From the NCBI GenBank assembly GCA_026129465.1, contig JAHCIA010000001.1:2117964-2181963 (forward strand): a stretch of 64,000 bases of DNA, in the 5' to 3' direction. The notes below the pieces were generated by a model. The model did no database searches, was not told the DNA's origin, and was given only the letters and a program-made list of their open reading frames with translations. The DNA is from Flavobacteriales bacterium. Lineage in GTDB: Bacteria; Bacteroidota; Bacteroidia; Flavobacteriales_F; PHOS-HE28. Shown one piece after another: positions 62,272-64,000 of this stretch (positions are counted from its first letter, which is position 1; every line of letters begins with the position of its first letter). A program made the translations under genes and the position numbers.

Positions 62272-62302
62272 TTGGAAATCTGATGTTGGCATGCTACGTT
62301 CG
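62272..62302 (+). promoter_or_regulatory. Promoter of the poly-C surface-protein gene
   Basis: TTG at 62272-62274 and TACGTTCG at 62295-62302 with a 20-nt spacer fit the Bacteroidota -33/-7 pattern. The ATG at 62324 follows 21 nt later. The 275-nt region upstream (62049-62323) is more AT-rich than the rest and contains no gene I can recognise. Confidence 0.6.
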
Positions 62303-62323: not shown

Positions 62324-63627
62324 ATGCGCTTTTATCCCCCCCCCCCCGCAAGATCCCTTTCCTGCTTATCGCCTGCGCGGCCGCAGGTCTTTTTGCTGAA
62401 AGCGCCTTCGCCCAACCGCTCAACATCACGCTCGTCCGCAGCAACTACAACGGCTATGGCGTCAGTTGCTTCGGGGGCACAAATGGTAGCATAGAGGCCA
62501 TCGTCACCGGGGGAACAGCACCCTACACCTATTTGTGGTCCAACCAGGACACCACAGCCGCCATCAGCGGCCTGGCAGCGGGTTACTACCGCGTAACGGT
62601 GTCGGATGCGGACAGCACATCGCGCTATGCGGAGATCACCCTCTCGCAGCCCATGGCCCTCATTGTGGGCTTGACGCCCTACACCTGGCCCAACGGCTAC
62701 AACGTCAGCTGCCACCAGTGCTACAAAGGCAGCATCCAGACCAGCGTGCAGTATGGCGTGCCACCCTACACCTACCTGTGGCAGGATGCCATCACCACGC
62801 AGCACCGCACGGCCATCGGTGCAGGCAACTACCAATTGGTGGTCACAGACCACAATGGCTGCCAGAACCAACCCGGGGCGCTGTTCCTTTCGGAACCCGC
62901 CGACAACAACTGGGACAAGGGTGGCAATGCGGGCACGGACCCGGAGGTGGATTACCTGGGCACGTCGGATCCCACGGACTTTGTGCTGAAGAGCAACGGA
63001 ACGGAGCTCGTCCGCCTGCTTGCAGGAGGGGGTATCAAGCTGGGCCTGCCGTCCGGGATCCTCGGTCTGGACGATGACGGCGAGCTGCGCGCTTTCCTCA
63101 CCAAGCCTTGGTGCTGGCCGGCCGGGGACACGACGGTGGCCCCTTGGTACACCTGCGGGAATGTCATCGACAACCCGAATGGCATCTACTTCATCGGCAC
63201 GGTGAACAATGCTCCACTGCCCTTGCGCACCAACAACCAGCAACGCATGGTCATCACCAGCGAGGGGCGCGTGGGGATCGGCACCAACCCACCGGCTGGC
63301 GCGGTGGATGGCTACCGGCTCTTTGTGGAGGATGGTATCGCCACGCGCGATGTGCTGGTGAAACTGGGTGAATGGCCGGACCATGTGTTCGGGGAGTACT
63401 ACCACTTGATGCCGATAAAGGATCTCAGGGCGTTCTTGAAGCGGCACCGGCATTTGCCGGGCATACCGTCGGCTGTCGAAGTGGAGGCCAAGGGAGGCGT
63501 GGAGGTTGGCGACTTGCAGCGCCGCATGCTGGAGGTCATCGAGCAGCAGGCGCTGTACATCCTGCAATTGGAAGAGAAGTACCAAGGATTGGAGCAGCGG
63601 ATCATCACCCTTGAAGCGTCCAAATGA
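62324..63627 (+). pseudogene. SprB-repeat surface protein, out of frame at a poly-C tract (candidate phase-variable gene)
   Basis: The ATG at 62324 reads MRFY, then runs into 12 consecutive C (62336-62347) and continues in a wrong frame. The frame entered at CGC AAG ATC (62347) encodes RKIPFLLIACAAAGLFAES, the rest of a signal peptide, then two SprB-like repeats (GGTAPYTYLWSNQDTTAAI; GVPPYTYLWQDAIT). The tail is common in Bacteroidota surface proteins (VFGEYYHLMPIKDLRAFLK, HRHLPGIPSAVEVEAKGG) and ends in a coiled coil. With 10 or 13 C the ATG would read through, giving about 434 aa. Either phase-OFF, broken, or a homopolymer error. Confidence 0.75.
62336..62347. repeat. Poly-C tract (12 nt)
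   Basis: Twelve consecutive C start four codons after the ATG at 62324. The next longest homopolymers I noticed in the window are about 7 nt. A good substrate for slipped-strand mispairing. Confidence 0.9.
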
Positions 63628-64000
63628 TGCGCTGGGCATCCATCACCTGTGCGGTCATGTTCGCCAAGCTGTCATTCACAGCCATGCTTCGCGCGCAAAC
63701 ACCCTACCCGGACCACTCCATCCAGGATGTGTCTTGGAGCAGCGGCACGCACCATTTCGCCGTGGTCACCCAGCACATCATAGCACCGGGCACCCCCACC
63801 TTGCCTGTCCTGATCACAGGTACGGCCGATGCCGAGTTCGTTTCCGGTTCCCAGGTCCGCTTGGCACCAGGTTTCCATGCGGGTGGCTTCAATACCGAAG
63901 GCCGTTTCAGGGCCTATATCGACGAAAGCCTTGGTCAGCCTGCGGACCTGATCATTATCGCCCCGGACCCGCAAGGGGCCTTGGTGGACAACATCGTGCA
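63624..64000 (+). CDS. Exported Bacteroidota surface-protein fragment (cut by window edge)
   Basis: Starts at the ATG at 63624, overlapping the preceding stop (ATGA), and stays open to the window end (~125 residues visible). N-terminal signal peptide (MMRWASITCAVMFAKLSFTA, cut near MLRAQ). Around residues 71-83 FVSGSQVRLAPGFHAGG is the 3-coathanger-stack-like motif seen in many T9SS-exported proteins of Bacteroidota. Function unknown. Its coupling to the upstream gene means that a frameshift there could also lower its expression. Confidence 0.75.
   Translation, partial: MMRWASITCAVMFAKLSFTAMLRAQTPYPDHSIQDVSWSSGTHHFAVVTQHIIAPGTPTLPVLITGTADAEFVSGSQVRLAPGFHAGGFNTEGRFRAYIDESLGQPADLIIIAPDPQGALVDNIV

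Follow-up and report, generated by a model that had tools for sequence, protein, structure and literature searches.

A poly-C tract in the first codons of a SprB-repeat gene as the putative switch of a multicopy, genus-wide family in uncultured Flavobacteriales

A gene for a predicted surface protein in a Flavobacteriales genome is put out of frame by a run of 12 C placed directly after its first four codons, which raises the question whether this run is an error, a mark of decay or a genetic switch. Repeat-number phase variation has been described mostly in host-adapted pathogens, and the Bacteroidota are known for DNA inversions. According to PMC11868660, surface genes that act as SSR contingency loci in Neisseria, Campylobacter, Helicobacter and Haemophilus carry poly-C/G or multi-base repeats in their 5′ coding region, and phase variation in Bacteroides is associated with DNA inversions. 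An earlier note on the window (the whole stretch of 64,000 nucleotides that was analysed) had proposed a homopolymer switch, and we have examined this proposal at the locus itself, in the genome and across the genus. The relevant features of the window are as follows.

62324..63627, + strand: gene 1, putatively phase-variable, out of frame in the assembly; encodes a signal peptide, SprB-type domains and a C-terminal helix
62324..62335, + strand: start codon ATG (62324-62326) and first codons, ATG CGC TTT TAT, read directly; kept in copies A, B and D (see below)
62336..62347, + strand: poly-C tract of 12 C, the putative switch element; this length is OFF, 10 or 13 would be ON
62347..62412, + strand: signal-peptide region in the ON frame (RKIPFLLIACAAAGLFAESAFA), called by eye on the translation
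62461..62553, + strand: SprB repeat (PF13573) in the ON frame, 61.8 bits against a cut-off of 28
63624..64000, + strand, continuing past the window end: gene 2, whose start overlaps the gene 1 stop (ATGA, 63624-63627)

Direct reading of the sequence confirmed the 12 C immediately after ATG CGC TTT TAT, the longest homopolymer of the window, where the next C runs (8 and 7) occur once each. In-silico translation gave 56 aa with 12 C, 433 aa with 10 C and 434 aa with 13 C, in agreement with the OFF and ON lengths that had been proposed, and the long frame of ~434 aa does hold the signal peptide and the SprB repeat ascribed to it. At 12 C no ATG, GTG or TTG located 5′ of the tract opens the long frame. 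The overlap with the next gene, also claimed before, is real.

The genome comprises 3.88 Mb in 7 contigs and contains ~18 C/G runs of at least 9 nucleotides, with one low-complexity contig end left out. Five of these runs occupy the identical position in five paralogous genes, which argues that the tract in the window did not arise by chance. Another run of 12 C lies at C1:119588. A DNA search of the genome with the 5′ region returned exactly five places, all with the tract after ATGCG[C/T]T.

Copy A, window locus, C1:2180299: 12 C, out of frame from the tract-adjacent ATG, intact frame of ~400 codons
Copy B, C1:2630094: 9 C, out of frame from the tract-adjacent ATG, intact frame of ~400 codons
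Copy C, C1:1966304: 16 C, out of frame from the tract-adjacent ATG, intact frame of ~400 codons
Copy D, C1:3014620: 10 C, out of frame from the tract-adjacent ATG, intact frame of ~400 codons
Copy E, C1:3154125: 12 C, out of frame from the tract-adjacent ATG, truncated

The idea of a tract switch at one gene was therefore upheld as regards the tract and had to be widened as regards the gene, which is one of five paralogues. Proteins B, C and D share 86-97% identity with A, and dN/dS among copies A-D ranges from 0.09 to 0.28, so that the OFF copies do not appear to be drifting and purifying selection is indicated. MutS is present in the genome, hence no mutator state is suggested. Copy E (L087) is accompanied, 7-18 kb 3′ of its ATG, by direct-repeat arrays with units of several hundred bases that are 72-96% alike; they lie within a large open frame, that of a giant repeat protein beside the truncated copy.

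The reading frame of each copy depends on which ATG is used, and in this respect two putative promoter elements are informative.

62272..62275, + strand: putative −33 element TTGG, 19 nt 5′ of the −7 element; TTTG/TTGG at the equivalent place in copies A-E
62295..62302, + strand: putative −7 element TACGTTCG; Bacteroidota consensus TAnnTTTG

As stated in the promoter passages of PMC6847099 and PMC7366714, the Bacteroidota −33/−7 consensus is TTTG/TAnnTTTG, transcription begins 4-5 nt past the −7 element and an A at −3 favours initiation. Of 38 homologues, 26 have the motif TAnnTT[TC][GA] at a distance of 18-60 nt from the ATG on its 5′ side, mostly at −25 to −30, compared with a mean of 1.5 and a maximum of 6 in 500 shuffles, and in copies A-E it is preceded by TTTG or TTGG at a distance of 19-20 nt. 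The conserved match would leave a leader of ~17 nt and makes the tract-adjacent ATG the probable start codon. Copies B and C have a further ATG, 5′ of this one, that reads ON through the tract; it was rejected as an alternative start because it sits inside the conserved −7 element and would not be transcribed. All five copies are thus OFF in the assembly consensus. The chance of this is ~0.13 if each copy is ON one time in three, and the simultaneous OFF state is a mildly unexpected result that counts against random switching.

The SprB repeat of gene 1 scored above the Pfam gathering score (PF13573, E 4.7e-17), and two homologues, L120 and L136, matched the same family at 74.9 and 63.3 bits. 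In the structure model of the ON protein (mean pLDDT 70, pTM 0.41), an Ig-like N-terminal part of ~160 residues is predicted with high confidence and the middle only poorly, and a long helix lies at the C-terminus. Among its best structural matches are the Aureispira grappling-hook protein GhpA, SiiE and intimin, at low TM-scores of 0.20-0.28. Such a model suits a surface or adhesin-like protein but is proof of neither.

Copies A-D each head a cassette made of the switch gene, gene 2 and gene 3, and genes 1 and 2 overlap by ATGA in copies A-C. Gene 2 of copy B is intact (1032 aa), and in this copy genes 2 and 3 each have a T9SS type A sorting domain at the end. No T9SS sorting domain, type A or B, was detected in gene 1 with Pfam or NCBIfam; the earlier description of its product as a T9SS-era surface protein has to be amended in this respect, the sorting domain belonging to genes 2 and 3 of the cassette. 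Gene 2, which might switch together with gene 1 as the note had suggested, is broken in copy A by an IS5-family insertion at C1:2182976, just beyond the window. Three identical 898-bp IS5-family elements (282-aa transposase) are located at C1:2182976-2183873, 2184994-2185891 and 1961628-1962525, the last belonging to copy C and the other two lying just past the window end; in copies A and C gene 2 is ended by such an element before the sorting domain. A perfect 898-bp inverted repeat 3′ of copy A was considered as an invertible segment and rejected, as it consists of two of the IS5-family copies, and no inverted repeat as used in invertase phase variation was found near the locus besides this pair, 2.7-5.6 kb 3′ of the ATG. 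Behind the copy A cassette, a gene-3 homologue (L039) carries 10 G at C1:2188404-2188413, ~30 codons in and past the signal peptide. It is out of frame at 10 G, would encode only ~160 aa with 9 or 12 G, and may be degenerate.

The genus was sampled with 45 species genomes, and the wider family search covered the same 45. Homologues were found in 27 of them by DNA search and in 30 by profile, and the named relatives are Flavobacteriales/Bacteroidota MAGs. When 56 homologous 5′ ends were read, a repeat with a non-triplet unit (1, 2 or 7) was present near the start codon in 41, a count of related and hence not independent sequences. In 37 of the 41 the repeat is preceded by an ATG and followed by the mature domain; one further repeat is a run of 19 G at a contig edge (L119). 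In L128, L130 (G034) and L144 (G030) the repeat (13 C, 10 C and 9 G, respectively) is placed 5′ of the start codon and may vary transcription instead of the reading frame; L128 was accordingly counted on the promoter side and not as a coding OFF allele. The 15 ends devoid of a tract include 12 with an ON-frame start. Relatives with an intact frame and no tract had been named beforehand as evidence against a switch; these 12 of the 56 are of that kind, and the family mostly presents the opposite, a frame-shifting repeat.

The comparison of tracts among relatives, as the note had advised, revealed several unrelated repeat types with ON and OFF alleles mixed. They comprise poly-C (7-16), poly-G (8-15), (AC)10 in L157, the heptamer GCACGCC in L146, L155 and L253 and four copies of CACACGG in L266, and frame-breaking is the sole property common to units of 1, 2 and 7. 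An unbiased scan of 34 genes for homopolymers of at least 8, dinucleotides in at least 5 copies and 4-8-mers in at least 3 copies placed all of its 26 repeats in the 5.7 kb of 5′ sequence, and the 42.6 kb of gene body yielded 0; a 12-nt tetramer run in L145, counted among the 26, probably arose by chance. In the named contigs, taken with 2.5-kb flanks, the repeat was found ~70-200 bp 5′ of the match, with few others. A pattern search over the genus (ATGC-N0-24-C9) proved noisy, as the reversed control matched about as often in most genomes, although 0 times in the own genome, and therefore the homologue-by-homologue comparison was used instead. Three cases of poly-C near an ATG in other genomes (L268-L270) lie outside the family and did not make convincing switches. 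Two species genomes share identical homologue sequences (L257 of G020 and L258 of G042), either through a recent transfer or because MAG contigs were cross-binned.

Scored from the nearest ATG, 10 of the 37 coding alleles are ON (p = 0.49 against one third), or 8 of 37 if L139 and L263 are scored OFF from better-supported starts, and this share is consistent with the one in three that a random frame would give. Tract length differs among close relatives, at the level of paralogues (12/9/16/10/12 in the five copies) and of species. Within one genome L136 has 12 G and is OFF, whereas L137 has 13 G and is ON; the near-identical genes L127 and L134 of two species have 10 G (OFF) and 9 G (ON). Similar pairs are L146 with five heptamers (OFF) and L155 with three (ON), and L124 with 15 G (OFF) and L154 with 10 G (ON). 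A protein tree from which the repeat region was left out requires at least 19 changes of repeat class. It is a quick tree with weak forks, on which gain and loss look alike; the starred branches alone force 5 changes for poly-C and 5 for poly-G. The repeated replacement of the repeat type, as suggested by these alleles, does not depend on the weak forks. Different kinds of repeat at one spot in relatives point to selection for the switch itself.

On these grounds the tract of copy A is very probably the hypermutable element of a contingency locus in a multicopy, genus-wide family of surface-protein genes, and the phase-variation reading of the earlier note gains its support from the 41 of 56 ends with frame-shifting repeats and from the mixed ON and OFF alleles. 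Transcription would start from the conserved promoter ~17 nt 5′ of the ATG, and slipped-strand mispairing at replication would alter the number of repeat units just 5′ of the signal peptide. One length class in three would keep the frame open through the signal peptide and SprB-type domains and yield the full surface protein, the other lengths a short dead peptide. Each copy would thereby switch stochastically and heritably between the two products, and with several copies per genome a clone could become a mosaic of surface types. We infer a high slippage rate in living cells and an expression that tracks the reading frame; the product would be an adhesin-like surface protein, with selection related to phage or attachment. 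A broader proposal, which we rather favour, is that this genus of uncultured environmental Flavobacteriales maintains a repeat-driven repertoire under strong selection for switchability, with the repeat lost from the one site and re-created there time and again from unrelated units (C, G, AC and two heptamers), and with most copies kept OFF at any moment as a bet-hedging reserve, e.g. against phage.

The same tract could be read in other ways. Long G/C homopolymers are error-prone in the consensus calls of metagenome assemblies, and some tract lengths in the MAG consensus may be off by one. If the true tract were in frame, the gene would simply be ON with a poly-proline stretch, and one more C would indeed turn copies A, B and C ON; D and E, however, would have to change the opposite way, the repeat recurs in 41 of the 56 homologues, drawn from many assemblies, OFF alleles made of heptamers or AC cannot be homopolymer miscalls, and a hypermutable tract would stay even with one wrong length, all of which makes this explanation highly improbable. 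Slightly more credit, although still very little, may be given to programmed transcriptional slippage or ribosomal frameshifting, by which every cell would mix frames and the gene would always be partly ON, with no genetic switch. Long homopolymers can make RNA polymerase slip (PMC3711429), and all five copies are OFF yet under purifying selection. Against it, known transcriptional slippage motifs are mostly A/T runs (PMC3711429), the heptamer and dinucleotide repeats at the same site (L146, L155, L253, L266 and L157) are not slippery in that way for RNA polymerase, and lengths vary freely (7-19) with about one third of the alleles ON.

Least probable of all is pseudogene decay, by which the frame would be broken because the duplicates are being lost. 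In its favour are the truncation of copy E, the IS5-family insertions that cut gene 2 in A and C and a further in-frame stop in L139-L141, but four copies keep ~400 intact codons at the low dN/dS given above, the promoter and the start codon are conserved, and genus-wide the frame breaks at one site, inside non-triplet repeats. Programmed slippage, assembly error and decay each explain part of the data on a single gene; none of them explains heptamer and dinucleotide alleles at the same position or the restriction to the first codons.

A switch driven by repeat number thus remains the preferred reading, and the family can be placed among known systems. Its non-triplet repeat lies in the 5′ coding region or promoter and is longer than expected by chance, with lengths that keep the frame and lengths that break it in genes otherwise intact; by these sequence features it classes as an SSR phase-variable contingency locus. 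As far as the loci of Neisseria, Campylobacter, Helicobacter and Haemophilus are outlined in PMC11868660, the likeness extends to a non-triplet repeat among the first codons of surface-protein genes, ahead of or within the signal peptide, to mixed frames and to several loci per genome. The differences are the environmental Flavobacteriales as carriers and the single paralogous family in which the repeat type was replaced many times at one site; moreover, the reversible switching that defines the class is here a prediction from sequence. With invertase phase variation in Bacteroides the family shares the phylum and the proposed stochastic switching of surface proteins, but there is no invertible segment at the locus and the switch would be repeat number. 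With the SprB-type adhesins of Flavobacterium johnsoniae (T9SS) it shares the SprB repeat domain (PF13573) and the Ig-like fold, in contrast to which the product is no giant adhesin, being ~430 aa long and composed of SprB-type modules plus a long helix at the C-terminus, and the sorting domain is confined to cassette genes 2 and 3.

No described case of SSR phase variation in Bacteroidota was found in the open literature searched, most subscription journals lying outside its scope, and this negative result is not proof of absence. The SSR mechanism is already known; here it would operate in a new lineage, which offers an unusually clear record of repeat-type turnover. If the reading is true, a genus-wide multicopy contingency family would represent the same evolutionary solution in another phylum and setting, and the natural series of repeat-type changes at one site would offer a direct test of selection on switchability versus selection on the peptide. 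In MAG annotations, genes of this kind will probably appear as pseudogenes or fragments.

Two further C/G-rich places were noted in the genome. The end of the large contig (G000:C1:3862162-3862203), the one left out of the tract counts, is a low-complexity G-rich sequence with runs of 10, 9 and 14 and is probably an assembly or read-end artefact. A different secreted protein (L033) has 10 G at codon 87 (C1:437341-437350); it is 115 aa long as assembled and would reach 487/488 aa with 9 or 12 G, being possibly a second switch gene or a miscall.
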